Below, one piece after another: positions 8,852 to 16,530 of a stretch of DNA of 40,554 bases. Each line of letters opens with the position of its first letter. Positions within the stretch are counted from its first letter, which is position 1. The position numbers and the translations under genes were made by a program. The notes under the pieces are model-generated. The model searched no databases, had not been told where the DNA came from, and saw nothing but the letters and a program-made list of their open reading frames with translations. The stretch is from Spirochaetaceae bacterium (GTDB taxonomy: Bacteria; Spirochaetota; Spirochaetia; DSM-27196; SLAA01): positions 1 to 40,554 of the forward strand of contig PWQX01000116.1 of assembly GCA_003556605.1 (NCBI GenBank), given 5' to 3'.

Positions 8852-10747
8852 ATGAAATCGTGGCGACTCACCGTAAAAATCGCGGCTCTCCCAGTATTGC
8901 TTGTCGTTCTCATGGCGTTGGCGTTTTATCTTTTGTTGCTCCCGGCTTTGCGAGCTCAGGCGGTAGAGCAGCGTAAGGATTCGGTTGCCCGCCTCAGCGA
9001 AGTAGCTTACCGGGCGGTGGAGCGGTATTACACGCGCGCGCAGCAGTCGGAGGTGAGCACGCAGTATGCGCAGGGAAACGCTGCCGAGTTGGTAACGGCG
9101 ATGGTCTATGGTGATGACGATTACCTTTTTATACTCGAGGACGCGTTACCGTACCCGCGCATGATCGCGCATCCGATTACGCCCCATCTGGAAGGACAGG
9201 TTCTCGCAGGCGAGCAGTTCGAGCGCGCGTGGTATGCCCACGGCGCCGGCGGAGATCGCATTGAGTACCGTGACCGCGACAAAAACGTGATGCAGGCATT
9301 AGTGGAGACGGTGCGTAGTTACGGCAGCGGCTACGTCGGTTACTATCGGGCGCGCCCGGCGGCTGACGGTGCAGTCACGGATGAAGTGTATCCCAAGGAG
9401 GTTCACGCTCGCCGTTTCGAACCCTGGGGATGGGTAGTCGCCACCGGGGCATACGTTGACGACGTCGAACAACAGGCTGCGGCGTTTGCTTACGGTATTG
9501 GTGTGATACTTGCGGTGGTTCTGATTGTGGTGGCCGGCGTGTCTGTACTAGTGGCCGAACGTATCGCAGCGCCGATTCGCGAGACGACAGCCGCGCTGCG
9601 CCGAATGTCCGACGGTGATCTGAGCACTGAGCTGCAGGTGTTTACGGTAGATGAAGGTGGGCGAATGTGCGCAAGCTTCAACAGTTTCTCGGCCGGCTTG
9701 CGCCGCACGATTAAGGCCGTTGGTTCTTCAATAGCATCGCTGGACAGCGTCGGTGAATCGCTCTCGGTGAGTATACAGGCGACCCGTTCAGCTGTGTACG
9801 AGGTCGCGGGACGTCTCGAGCGCCTCGCGGTGCAGGTGGGCGAAGACAACGAGGTAGTAGCGGAAGTGCACCGGGTTATGGCGGAGGGTACCGGCGATCT
9901 CTCGGCATTGGACGAAGGCGTTAGCGGGCAAGCCGCCGCGGTGACGCAGTCGTCGGCCGCGATTGAGGAAATGGTCTCTAATATCGGATCGGTGGCCAAG
10001 AGTCTCGAAGGCAACGCGCAAGAGGTGCGGAAGCTCGCGGAGGCTTCCAGCACCGGCCGGGAGAAGCTCGAGCACACCAATGTCATGATTGCCGAGATTG
10101 GTAAACGCTCCGATGCTCTGTTGGAGACCAACGAAGCGATGAAGGCGATCGCCGAGCAGACGAATCTCTTGGCGATGAACGCGGCTATCGAAGCTGCGCA
10201 CGCCGGCGAAGCGGGCAAGGGTTTCGCCGTTGTGGCCGACGAGATTAGGCGGCTTTCCGAGGCCGCCGACGAGCAGTCGCGGAATACGGCCGAGGTGCTG
10301 CAGTTCACCAAGAGCTCGATTGATACTGTGGTGGGTTCCTCGCGCGAGGTCGAACAAGCGTTTAGCGCGATGCTGCGTACGCTGGAAGCGGTGGAGCGTC
10401 GCGGTGAGGAGATGCGCGCGGCCATGGACGAGCAGAGCGCGGGCGGCTCGCAAATACTGAACGGTCTCAGTCAGATCAAAGACGCAACGTTTGCGTTACA
10501 AGAGGTCAGGGGACGCGTGACCGAGGAGAATAGGCGGGTTAGCGGCGGCATAGACTCGTTGAGGCGATTATCCGATGAGGTCAGGGGAATCATTAGCGAG
10601 ATGTCGCGCGGGCATGCGGAGATAAACACTGCGGTGCTGAGCGTCGCTGAGCATAGTGACGAGAACCGCGCACGCATCGCCGAGCTACAGCGTCTGATCG
10701 ACCGCTTTGATACGGGCGAGGAAATCGGGGTCACTCAGAAGCAATAA
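8852..10747 (+). CDS. Methyl-accepting chemotaxis protein with periplasmic Cache domain
   Basis: The 631-residue receptor has a first membrane segment (about 7-31), a single Cache-type sensor (about 35-205; YLFILEDALPYPRMIAHP and the later EVYPKEVHARRFEPWGWVVATGAY are typical of the sCache_2 group), a second membrane segment (about 211-233), a HAMP domain (about 234-290) and a long signalling domain. The highly conserved hairpin tip EQTNLLAMNAAIEAAHAG starts near residue 435. sCache_2 domains often bind small organic acids, but the ligand here is unknown. There is no C-terminal CheR-docking pentapeptide. The 5' flank has CATAAT at 8807-8812 as a weak -10. The 3' end overlaps the next gene, on the other strand, by 17 bases. 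Confidence 0.95.
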   Translation: MKSWRLTVKIAALPVLLVVLMALAFYLLLLPALRAQAVEQRKDSVARLSEVAYRAVERYYTRAQQSEVSTQYAQGNAAELVTAMVYGDDDYLFILEDALPYPRMIAHPITPHLEGQVLAGEQFERAWYAHGAGGDRIEYRDRDKNVMQALVETVRSYGSGYVGYYRARPAADGAVTDEVYPKEVHARRFEPWGWVVATGAYVDDVEQQAAAFAYGIGVILAVVLIVVAGVSVLVAERIAAPIRETTAALRRMSDGDLSTELQVFTVDEGGRMCASFNSFSAGLRRTIKAVGSSIASLDSVGESLSVSIQATRSAVYEVAGRLERLAVQVGEDNEVVAEVHRVMAEGTGDLSALDEGVSGQAAAVTQSSAAIEEMVSNIGSVAKSLEGNAQEVRKLAEASSTGREKLEHTNVMIAEIGKRSDALLETNEAMKAIAEQTNLLAMNAAIEAAHAGEAGKGFAVVADEIRRLSEAADEQSRNTAEVLQFTKSSIDTVVGSSREVEQAFSAMLRTLEAVERRGEEMRAAMDEQSAGGSQILNGLSQIKDATFALQEVRGRVTEENRRVSGGIDSLRRLSDEVRGIISEMSRGHAEINTAVLSVAEHSDENRARIAELQRLIDRFDTGEEIGVTQKQ

Positions 10748-13212: not shown

Positions 13213-14889
13213 ATGAGCGAGACTGATAGACTTAACACAGACGAGCTTGAAGCCGAACAGAAATGGTACAGCATCGACGTGCACCCATACGTTTTTTTCA
13301 TCTCTGCAGCTCTCATCATCGGCACGGTTTTGTTTACCATTATCAACCACGAGGATGTACTCGGGCTGTTCGAACAGATACAGCTCTTCATAGCAGAGAC
13401 CGCGGGTTGGTTCTTGGTATTGACCATGAACGTCATCCTCATATTTGTGCTGGCGCTGCTGGTCGGCCGTTACGGCGATGTTCGACTTGGGGGTGAGTAC
13501 GCTGTTCCCGAGTTCACGATGCGTGCGTGGTTCGCGATGCTGTTTAGTGCCGGGATGGGGATCGGTCTGTTATTCTACGGCGTTGCCGAGCCGATGTTCC
13601 ACTTCGTAGTATCGCCGCTGGCGGAGCCCGGGACGGCGGATGCGGCACGGGTTGCGATGGACCTCACCTTCCTGCACTGGGGCTTGCACCCCTGGGCGGT
13701 ATACTCAATGGTTGGGTTGTCGCTTGCGTTTTTCTGTTTCAATAAAGGCTTGCCGCTGTCGATCCGCTCGGTGTTTTATCCGGTGCTGGGTGAGCGGATC
13801 TACGGACCAATCGGTAACCTCATTGATATTCTCGCTACCATCGCCACCCTGTTTGGGGTAGCCACCTCACTGGGTTTGGGTGTTCAGCAAGTAAACGCCG
13901 GGCTCGATCACCTGTTTGATATCGGCCAGAGCCCGGGCATTCAGGTGGCCTTGATCGCGGGCATTACCATGTTGGCGACCTGGTCGGTTGTGGCGGGGTT
14001 GAAGGCCGGTATCCGGCGCCTATCGGAAATCAACCTGCTTCTGGCGGTCCTGCTGTTGCTGTTCGTGCTCGCGCTGGGGCCCACTTTGTTCATCCTGAAC
14101 GCGTTTGGTGAGAATATCGGTTACTACGTGCAGCACCTGCCGCAGCTGGCAACTTGGAACGAGACCTACGAGGGCACGAGCTGGCAGCACGGCTGGACGG
14201 TGTTTTACTGGGGCTGGTGGATCGCGTGGTCACCGTTCGTTGGGATGTTTATCGCGCGTGTGTCGTACGGGCGCACGGTGCGTGAGTTCATTCTGGGTGT
14301 ACTGTTTGTGCCGACTTTGATCACATTCCTGTGGATCACGGTATTCGGCAACAGCGCCCTGAACATCGAGTTGCTCGGCGCGGGCGGAATGGCGGAAGCG
14401 GTGCAGGACAATATTCCGGTGGCGTTGTTCTTGCTGTTTGAAAACTTCCCGCTGGCTCAGGTGACCTCCGGGTTGGCGGTGTTGGTAATCATCACGTTCT
14501 TTGTGACTTCTTCCGACTCGGGGTCAATGGTGATCGATATCATCACCGCCGGGGGTAATCCCGACCCGCCGGTGCTGCAGCGGCTATTCTGGGCAATTCT
14601 CGAGGGTGTTGTTGCAGCTACGCTGCTGGTCGGCGGCGGGCTGGTTGCGCTGCAGACTGCGGCGATCGCGACCGGACTGCCGTTTGCCGCGGTGCTTCTG
14701 TTCATGTGTTACAGTCTGAGAAAGGGGCTCGCGGAGTATTCCGGGCCGCAGGGTTTTGCGCTGCCGCCGTATGAACACGGGCGAACGCTGCGGACGACCG
14801 TTACCTATCCCACGCCGGGGACATTCGGACGGAGGCGATTCCTATTAGGACGCAGGAAACCCAAGCGTCCGGCCGGAGGTGCGCAATGA
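13213..14889 (+). CDS. BCCT family betaine/carnitine/choline transporter
   Basis: The 558-residue, twelve-helix secondary transporter carries quaternary ammonium compounds with sodium or protons, or exchanges them. Family marks: GMGIGLLFYGVAEP, HWGLHPWAVYSMVGLSLAFF, the aromatic box in YWGWWIAWSPFVGMFIAR and FFVTSSDSGSMV. The sequence GMGIG is the sodium-coupled glycine-betaine type pattern rather than the carnitine-antiporter (CaiT) pattern. The ATG at 13213 lies 10 bases after the stop of the synthetase gene with AAGG before it. The C-terminal tail is short and basic (GRRRFLLGRRKPKR), a feature often linked to osmotic regulation. The next gene starts inside its stop codon (ATGA overlap). 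Confidence 0.95.
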   Translation: MSETDRLNTDELEAEQKWYSIDVHPYVFFISAALIIGTVLFTIINHEDVLGLFEQIQLFIAETAGWFLVLTMNVILIFVLALLVGRYGDVRLGGEYAVPEFTMRAWFAMLFSAGMGIGLLFYGVAEPMFHFVVSPLAEPGTADAARVAMDLTFLHWGLHPWAVYSMVGLSLAFFCFNKGLPLSIRSVFYPVLGERIYGPIGNLIDILATIATLFGVATSLGLGVQQVNAGLDHLFDIGQSPGIQVALIAGITMLATWSVVAGLKAGIRRLSEINLLLAVLLLLFVLALGPTLFILNAFGENIGYYVQHLPQLATWNETYEGTSWQHGWTVFYWGWWIAWSPFVGMFIARVSYGRTVREFILGVLFVPTLITFLWITVFGNSALNIELLGAGGMAEAVQDNIPVALFLLFENFPLAQVTSGLAVLVIITFFVTSSDSGSMVIDIITAGGNPDPPVLQRLFWAILEGVVAATLLVGGGLVALQTAAIATGLPFAAVLLFMCYSLRKGLAEYSGPQGFALPPYEHGRTLRTTVTYPTPGTFGRRRFLLGRRKPKRPAGGAQ

Positions 14890-15839
14890 ACTGTGCGTTT
14901 ATGACGTTCCGAATGCGTCTTGTTGCGCTTGTTGTCGTGACGCTCGCAACTGCCAGTTTCTGTGCTCCGGCTGAACCGGATGTTGAGGAACCGCCTGAGC
15001 GCCGCGAAGAGACGGTGCGCATTGTGTACGTTCCGTGGTCGAGCGAGATCGCGAGCAGCAATCTGCTGCGGGCGGTATTGCAGGAGCGGCTCGGGTACCG
15101 CGTTGAGTTAATCGCGCGCGAGCCGGAGGGAATGTGGGCGGCGATCGCCGGCGGCGAGGCAGATGTGTCGGTGTCGGCGTGGCTGCCGTTGACCCACGAT
15201 GAGTATTTCAAGCAGTACGGCGAGCGCGTAGTGGACCTCGGCCCCCACGTTGAGGGAGTACGAACCGGGTTGGTGATACCGCGGGTGAGCGTAGGGCGCC
15301 AGACCGGTGAGACCGGCCGGCGGGTGCGGCCCTATATTCCGGTGACCTCTATCGAAGAGCTTGGTCAGTACGCCGATAGGTTTGATAACCGGATTATGGG
15401 TATAGATCCGGAAGCCGGTGTGATGATGCGCGCGCGGGAGGCACTCGGGGTCTACGGGCTTGAAGACGATTTCCGAGTCGTAGAGGCCGACGAACAGCGC
15501 ATGGTTGAGGCTTTGAAGAGCGCAGTGCAAAGGCAGGAGTGGATCGTGGTCACCGGGTGGACGCCGCACTGGGTATTCAGTCGGTGGGACCTCGCGTTCT
15601 TGGATGATCCGAAGAATGTCTTTGGAGATACCGAAGCGATACATACCATCGTACGCGAAGGCTTAGCCGACGAGATGCCGGAGTTATATGGCGTTCTCGA
15701 TCGCTTCTTCTGGGAGGTTAGAGACATGTCGCGCCTGATGCTTTGGATCGAACAGCAGGACGGGGTTGATCCTTATGGCTCCGCCCAGCGCTGGATCCGG
15801 ACTAACCGTGACCGCGTAGACGCATGGGTTGGGAAGTGA
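14886..15839 (+). CDS. Glycine-betaine-type substrate-binding lipoprotein (OpuAC/ProX family)
   Basis: A signal peptide (about residues 8-25) ends in a relaxed lipobox (TASFC), so the mature protein should be a membrane-anchored lipoprotein starting at the cysteine. The rest is an OpuAC-type binding fold: VRIVYVPWSSEIASSNLL at the start, AIAGGEADVSVSAWLPLTH, GIDPEAGVMMRARE and VVTGWTPHWVFSRWDL, with several tryptophans that could form the aromatic cage for a quaternary amine. The length of 317 is usual. The gene overlaps the BCCT gene by 4 bases, so translation is coupled. No ABC ATPase or permease for betaine is in the window, so this is an orphan binding protein paired with a secondary carrier. 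Confidence 0.93.
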   Translation: MNCAFMTFRMRLVALVVVTLATASFCAPAEPDVEEPPERREETVRIVYVPWSSEIASSNLLRAVLQERLGYRVELIAREPEGMWAAIAGGEADVSVSAWLPLTHDEYFKQYGERVVDLGPHVEGVRTGLVIPRVSVGRQTGETGRRVRPYIPVTSIEELGQYADRFDNRIMGIDPEAGVMMRAREALGVYGLEDDFRVVEADEQRMVEALKSAVQRQEWIVVTGWTPHWVFSRWDLAFLDDPKNVFGDTEAIHTIVREGLADEMPELYGVLDRFFWEVRDMSRLMLWIEQQDGVDPYGSAQRWIRTNRDRVDAWVGK

Positions 15840-15846
15840 GATTGAC

Positions 15847-16530
15847 ATGATTCAGACTGCAATGTGGAAGTTTCGTGGAAGCTGTATGATGCTGATGCGC
15901 CGGGAAGGCAAACAGGTGGCGTATCTCGGGACGGCGTTTGTCGTGCACAGGGACGGATACATGCTGACCGCTGCGAGCCTGATCGCGGACGGTTCGGAGA
16001 CCAGTGAGTTGGTCGTCGCGCCGGCGGATCTTTCGCAGGTGTTCGCACCGATCACGATCGAGGCGGTTGCCCCGCTGAAGGTAGTTGTCGTGCAGATGGA
16101 CCGGGAACACGGCATAGCACTTCTGCGCTTTGACCCGCAACTGCAAGTAGAGGTGCCGGACCGGATCATCGGTAACCCCGAGATGTACTTTGACGGAAGC
16201 AGCGCGATGGCGCTGGGATTCTCGTTCGCGCATTACCGAATCCACAATGCGATTGGGCGCTCGACGGTGATCTCCGCTCGTATACAAACGCCGAACGGCA
16301 CTAAGCTTATGTTGATCGACCAGCGTGTGCACGAGGGCGACGTCGGGGGACTGTTGGTTTGTGTACAGGACGAGCGCGTGATCGGCTTGATTCTCGGGCG
16401 GTTCGACCCCACTGAACTGCGCAGAGACGAGCACCACGACGACGTGCAGATCGTAACCGGGATGTCACAAGTCGTCTCGATCGAGTATGGGGCGGCGTTG
16501 ATGCAAGCCGAGGGCCTGACGGTAACCTGA
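15847..16530 (+). CDS. Trypsin-fold pseudoprotease (catalytic triad lost)
   Basis: The 227-residue protein has the outline of an HtrA-like (S1C) chymotrypsin-fold protease: GTAFVVHRDGYMLTAASLI (28-46), EHGIALLRFD (87-96) and EGDVGGLLV (163-171). At each catalytic position the expected residue is missing: Ser44 instead of His (TAAS for TAAH), Gly89 instead of Asp, and Val166 instead of Ser (GDVGG for GDSGG). Hydrophobic core residues are kept and the frame is open, so the fold is maintained while catalysis is lost. There is no signal peptide and no PDZ domain. ATG at 15847 follows the lipoprotein stop by 7 bases, so the gene ends the acyl-CoA synthetase/BCCT/binding-protein operon. Its role is unknown; a binding or regulatory role is an inference. 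Confidence 0.8.
   Translation: MIQTAMWKFRGSCMMLMRREGKQVAYLGTAFVVHRDGYMLTAASLIADGSETSELVVAPADLSQVFAPITIEAVAPLKVVVVQMDREHGIALLRFDPQLQVEVPDRIIGNPEMYFDGSSAMALGFSFAHYRIHNAIGRSTVISARIQTPNGTKLMLIDQRVHEGDVGGLLVCVQDERVIGLILGRFDPTELRRDEHHDDVQIVTGMSQVVSIEYGAALMQAEGLTVT

Follow-up and report, generated by a model that had tools for sequence, protein, structure and literature searches.

A BCCT carrier gene linked to genes for an OpuAC-type binding protein and a pseudoprotease suggests a binding-protein-assisted secondary uptake system in spirochaetes and Desulfobacterota

A three-gene unit in a Spirochaetaceae contig

Contig PWQX01000116.1 of a Spirochaetaceae bacterium (assembly GCA_003556605.1; 40,554 nucleotides, the whole of which is called the window here) harbors on its plus strand three tightly packed genes, which encode a secondary carrier of the BCCT family, an OpuAC-type substrate-binding protein (SBP) and a Trypsin_2 protein. 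The carrier gene (13213-14889) codes for 558 amino acids that match Pfam PF02028 over residues 27-507 (E 2.4e-191) and belong, by family, to the LeuT fold. Its stop codon (TGA) overlaps the start codon of the SBP gene by four bases in the sequence ATGA (14886-14889). A GGAGG motif resembling a ribosome-binding site for the SBP gene lies within the 3' end of the carrier gene (14875-14879), and relatives carry purine-rich, mostly GGAG-like motifs at this position. We infer that translation of the two genes is coupled via the ATGA. The SBP gene (14886-15839) encodes an N-terminal signal sequence and a PF04069 (OpuAC) domain (E 1e-59), and after a gap of exactly 7 bases it is followed by the third gene (15847-16530), whose product of 227 amino acids has a Trypsin_2 fold (PF13365, E 1.4e-10) and is described below as a pseudoprotease. 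The tight unit with its ATGA overlap and 7-base spacing had been described in a first-pass annotation of this DNA and is exact in every detail. That annotation also called the second gene product an OpuAC-type binding lipoprotein; the family assignment stands, with the reservation that the lipobox of the window copy is degenerate (ASF-C), which could reflect a genuine difference or an error in the sequence, whereas the lipoboxes of its spirochaete relatives are canonical. An AMP-binding gene ends 10 bases upstream of the carrier gene. This neighbor is conserved within the genus and absent at distant loci with the three genes, and therefore it is not counted as part of the unit.

The unit recurs in two phyla

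Sixty relatives were compared together with the genome of the window, giving 61 genomes. The unit was found in 11 of them, which represent at least four families (family groups f1, f3, f7 and f8) and include metagenome-assembled genomes (MAGs) of Spirochaetaceae and Spirochaetales. Every one of the SBPs from the 60 relatives that are closest to that of the window (48-77% identity) is encoded directly downstream of a BCCT gene, and wherever the contig continues the Trypsin_2 gene comes next. The window and the ten other spirochaete loci share exactly the same four-base ATGA overlap, at an SBP identity of only about 50%.

All three genes were also found in Desulfobacterota, namely in the cultured Desulfofustis glycolicus DSM 9705, a Desulfobacteraceae MAG, a Desulfuromonadales MAG and genome G577; a Desulfohalobiaceae MAG has the BCCT and SBP genes and is missing the third. 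BCCT and SBP genes overlap by four bases in the Desulfuromonadales copy and are separated by about 30-40 bases in three other copies of this phylum, provided that the start codons are read correctly. When 395 Desulfobacterota genomes were searched with an SBP profile, the two best matches (401 and 399 bits) belonged to such trios, and the remaining matches (at most 353 bits) lay mostly beside genes for ATP-binding cassette (ABC) systems and never beside a BCCT gene.

Altogether 16 BCCT-linked loci were obtained (ten spirochaete relatives, five Desulfobacterota and the window), always in the order BCCT then SBP, and at none of the 16 was a betaine-type ATPase/permease pair found beside the SBP gene. 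A chance neighborhood is ruled out because the gene order reappears in loci whose SBPs are as little as 48% identical, with the same overlap kept in 11 spirochaete loci, and again in Desulfobacterota. The genome search that the first-pass annotation had called for thus recovers the trio in two phyla without betaine-type ATPase or permease genes beside it. A restriction of the trio to a single strain, which that annotation had named as a finding that would speak against its proposal, is thereby excluded.

BCCT-linked binding proteins form one branch with a private insertion

The SBP was compared within a set of 140 SBPs and their neighboring genes, consisting of the 16 BCCT-linked proteins and 124 others (90 with ABC genes, 11 with ABC genes and a downstream BCCT gene, 22 with neither and one with a downstream BCCT gene only). 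The BCCT-linked SBPs form a single branch (support 95 in a quick Shimodaira-Hasegawa-like approximate likelihood-ratio test, SH-aLRT). An insertion of 16 residues just after the hinge strand, which in the window copy spans V134-P149 (15285-15332; VSVGRQTGETGRRVRP), is present in 16/16 of them and in none of the 124 other relatives.

An AlphaFold2 (AF2) model of the SBP (mean predicted local distance difference test, pLDDT, 90.6) had its best matches in the Protein Data Bank (PDB) in lactococcal OpuAC with and without betaine (3l6g and 3l6h) and also in spirochaete-type ProX. With a TM-score of 0.93 by target length against 3l6g, the model shows the OpuAC fold. The prism of three tryptophans and the carboxylate-binding histidine of OpuAC are present as well: Trp51 (15036-15038), Trp99 and His104 (15180-15197) and Trp225 (15558-15560) were aligned to OpuAC (2b4l) and do not vary among the BCCT-linked SBPs. 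We take W51, W99, W225 and H104 to be the pocket residues Trp178, Trp225, Trp72 and His230 of Bacillus subtilis OpuAC, and these residue numbers agree with the 2b4l alignment, in which they are shifted by a constant four. By alignment, the BCCT-linked SBPs retain the glycine-betaine pocket of OpuAC, which points to a betaine-like solute that carries a carboxylate.

The carrier is the hub of the unit

BCCT carriers have the LeuT fold and are generally regarded as working by alternating access of the rocking-bundle type. The closest solved relative of the window carrier is TmaT (8zw8, 538 bits), followed by BetT-like proteins and BetP. The residues M115, W156, W161, Y164, W335, W336 and W339 are intact and invariant in 17/17 relatives, and six of them (W156, W161, Y164, W335, W336 and W339) make up the aromatic boxes of transmembrane helices 4 and 8. 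All aromatic-box residues listed for TmaT (PMC11708041) are kept.

Carriers of this type (at least 66% identical) were detected in 13 of the 61 genomes. In 11 the SBP gene follows; in G001 the contig terminates exactly at the ATGA, and in G048 the carrier and pseudoprotease genes occur with no SBP gene between or beside them. The reverse was observed at locus L144, where carrier and SBP genes occur and the pseudoprotease gene is missing. The BCCT carrier is the hub of the unit, because one genome has it with the pseudoprotease only and another with the SBP only. The L144 carrier also lacks the basic C-terminal tail (with TFGRRRF- or VHGH-type motifs) that is present in most others; from this one case it might be guessed that the tail is the contact site of the pseudoprotease.

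The third protein has lost the catalytic triad

In the third protein the His, Asp and Ser positions of the protease triad are occupied by S44, G89 and V166, and the triad is incomplete in 18/18 homologues. All 15 BCCT-linked copies lack the serine, which is replaced by V, A, L, I or R; the spirochaete copies have lost the histidine too, whereas those of Desulfobacterota retain His and Asp. Three homologues have no BCCT neighbor (G010, G023 and G028), two of which retain Ser and lack His. On the basis of this alignment a catalytically active protease was ruled out. The family is well separated, with more than 350 bits among its own members versus at most 75 bits for other, mostly HtrA-like, matches in the phylum. 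An AF2 model (pLDDT 36.5, nine sequences) was too poor and was not used. No signal-peptide-like stretch was detected in the protein and its N-terminal hydropathy is low; it is therefore predicted to be a cytoplasmic pseudoprotease, which would reach only the inner side of the carrier. The triad-less protease noted in the first-pass annotation is accordingly real and conserved, while its suggested role as partner or regulator enters only the model below.

The homologues without a BCCT neighbor (loci L082, L083 and L086) lie beside a conserved gene of about 235 codons, the L082 copy of which gave no Pfam match; it is the L082 and L083 proteins that keep Ser and not His. A distant Trypsin_2 protein of 226 amino acids with an apparent triad His is encoded in genome G419 (L263:6181-6858), near transposase-like genes and with no BCCT match.

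The three genes share their inheritance

The branching of the carrier tree is about the same as that of the SBP tree, and the carriers of the trios form one side of a branch with a support of 78. Pairwise distance matrices were correlated for BCCT and SBP (0.83), BCCT and pseudoprotease (0.91) and SBP and pseudoprotease (0.95; p 1e-4 each), to which shared species history contributes. Genomes G007 (f1) and G020 (f7) group together in both the SBP and the BCCT tree, which, as they belong to different families, fits a transfer of the whole operon. A dedicated SBP gene is co-conserved with the carrier gene, as it is in SBP-dependent secondary transporters.

A model for binding-protein-assisted uptake

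These data make it reasonably probable that the unit serves for uptake by a BCCT carrier with the assistance of an SBP, and they suggest a hitherto undescribed type of transporter. In the proposed model, the SBP would be attached to the outer side of the inner membrane (in the periplasm in Desulfobacterota), where its Trp/His pocket would capture glycine betaine or a close analogue. The liganded SBP would then dock on the BCCT carrier and raise its effective affinity, and the carrier, probably coupled to Na+, would import the solute. The cytoplasmic pseudoprotease might bind the cytoplasmic side of the carrier and tune its activity or assembly.

Several points weigh against this model. To our knowledge, known BCCT carriers work without SBPs. 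The alignment of the carrier with TmaT is gap-free, leaving no evident extra docking loop. Since G048 keeps the BCCT and pseudoprotease genes without an adjoining SBP gene, at least one lineage can do without the SBP. In addition, SBP and carrier could differ in their ligands, because TmaT, a Na+/trimethylamine symporter, is reported to bind trimethylamine and not betaine (PMC11708041). Finally, the SBP clade of the trios may have a single origin and have been spread by transfer, in which case the loci would not be independent.

The same genetic evidence would be obtained if the SBP were a sensor or activator that, on binding betaine from outside, gates the BCCT carrier or regulates it, or signals through it to the pseudoprotease, with no handover of solute. 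Such a function would accord with carriers that need no SBP and show no extra docking loop, and a pseudoprotease on the inner side would suit a signaling unit. However, the full high-affinity pocket is retained, delivery is the simplest use of an SBP beside a carrier for the same class of ligand, and no signaling gene is common to the loci examined; we therefore give a sensor a rather small probability and favor assisted uptake.

Betaine ABC systems in the same genomes

Serving an ABC importer is the usual role of OpuAC proteins, and the SBP could do so in trans, the operon merely co-expressing two betaine systems. ABC operons with a downstream BCCT gene do occur, in Halomonadaceae and Thiotrichaceae, and the window genome possesses OpuA-type genes: its contig C38 carries the end of a ProV-like ATPase gene and a ChoW-like permease gene with no SBP gene visible. 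An OpuA-type pair without its own SBP had been named in the first-pass annotation as evidence against its proposal, and the C38 genes fit that description as far as they can be seen. However, the end of C38 falls within the ATPase gene, and in G020, G043 and G048 the orthologous genes (62-80% identical) are directly preceded by an SBP gene of their own, so that the missing SBP gene is probably best explained by an assembly gap. Contig C88 was considered as the missing 5' part of this ABC operon and rejected, as its ATPase is 42% identical to the C38 orthologue over the match, compared with 79% for the C38 piece.

The OpuF/OsmF-type systems of the window genome (contigs C69 and C145) have their own SBPs. 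Among the other genomes, no OpuAB-type permease was detected at E 1e-5 in the available sequence of G442, which has the trio, only weak, OpuF-type permease matches were obtained in G045 (91% complete), and the OpuAB-type permeases of G443 and G440 are adjoined by their own SBP. Each OpuAB-type permease seen therefore has its own SBP where the contig permits the check, which for the window genome is judged from the orthologues. Together with the separate clade, the private insertion and the conserved four-base overlap of the BCCT-linked SBPs, these findings make a function in trans unlikely. The first-pass annotation had proposed that the binding protein feeds the BCCT carrier: the pairing itself stands, being spread over many genomes and facing no OpuA-type pair proven to lack an SBP, with the gap at C38 as a reservation, and the feeding would be the part contributed by the model. 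As another alternative, it had been proposed that the SBP serves the upstream Cache chemoreceptor, a methyl-accepting chemotaxis protein (MCP) at 8852-10747, about 4 kb away in the window, to which it would present betaine. This is highly improbable, as a DtxR gene of opposite orientation and the AMP-binding gene intervene, the stretches read around distant trio loci gave no MCP match, and Cache receptors usually bind their ligands directly.

A separate pairing was observed in a Thioploca MAG (L204:1116-3691), in which an ordinary OpuAC-type SBP without the insertion is ATGA-coupled to a downstream BCCT gene of another clade. The 1.1 kb preceding this SBP gene revealed no ABC gene; in the kin of this pair (L180, L181 and L189), ABC genes are followed by the SBP gene and then by the BCCT gene. 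L204 resembles an intermediate on the way from an ABC operon to a pair of SBP and BCCT genes, but ABC genes could be present in another part of this MAG's genome.

The window genome contains a second orphan OpuAC-family SBP gene (contig C169, L019:4489-5544), beside aldehyde dehydrogenase, SDR and MarR genes, and G002 (L111) shows the same arrangement. At L100 and L101, betaine ABC operons contain tandem SBP genes, the two of which fall in different parts of the SBP tree.

Relation to known systems

In the open-licence text of PubMed Central (PMC), preprints excluded, no report of a BCCT carrier in binding-protein-dependent secondary transport was found. The titles and abstracts of betaine-transport papers that matched both BCCT and SBP describe no such pair, and BCCT and trypsin-like peptidase were co-mentioned in one paper, as a single occurrence of each. 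If the model is true, the annotation of orphan OpuAC-type binding proteins would change, and a conserved pseudoprotease would be added to a transport unit. The cultured host D. glycolicus DSM 9705 makes the unit accessible.

The SBP shares family, fold and glycine-betaine pocket with OpuA/ProU-type ABC importers but differs in the absence of ATPase and permease genes at its loci, in the 16-residue insertion at the hinge and in its coupling to a BCCT gene. The carrier resembles TmaT, BetT and BetP in family and aromatic boxes, and shares the GMGIG motif with TmaT and BetP. In their published descriptions TmaT, BetT and BetP function with neither an SBP nor a pseudoprotease as partner. HtrA/Deg (S1C) proteins have the Trypsin_2 fold that is predicted from sequence for the third protein, whose best PDB matches are DegP-like proteins and HtrA; in contrast to them, it has no PDZ domain and no signal peptide, and its triad is never complete. 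TRAP and TTT systems likewise perform SBP-dependent secondary uptake, but their SBPs and membrane proteins are unrelated to those of the unit, their membrane parts are of the elevator type, and they contain no BCCT; the carrier of the present unit is a BCCT and not a TRAP, TTT or ESS membrane part.

The closest parallel is TAXI-GltS of Bordetella pertussis, in which the gene of the lipoprotein BP0403 overlaps that of the symporter it is thought to feed, a proposal that draws on genome context, on fusions and on binding data for the SBP (PMC12344293). According to its authors, the use of soluble SBPs had previously been known for TRAP and TTT only, all three systems resemble elevators, and the need for an elevator would be put to the test by further classes (PMC12344293). 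Both units have an SBP gene overlapping a secondary carrier gene and no classical partner genes at the locus. They differ in that TAXI-GltS combines a TAXI-family SBP with an ESS-family carrier, a predicted elevator, whereas an OpuAC-family SBP is combined here with a BCCT carrier of the LeuT fold. Moreover, the present unit has a third, pseudoprotease gene, while TAXI-GltS has fusions; no SBP-BCCT gene fusion was noticed in the loci read, for which no systematic search was made. Because BCCT carriers have the LeuT fold and a presumed mechanism of the rocking-bundle type, this conserved pair could serve as a test case for the elevator requirement of SBP partners. If true, SBP-assisted uptake by a BCCT carrier would answer the question raised for TAXI-GltS, whether the partner of an SBP needs an elevator mechanism (PMC12344293).

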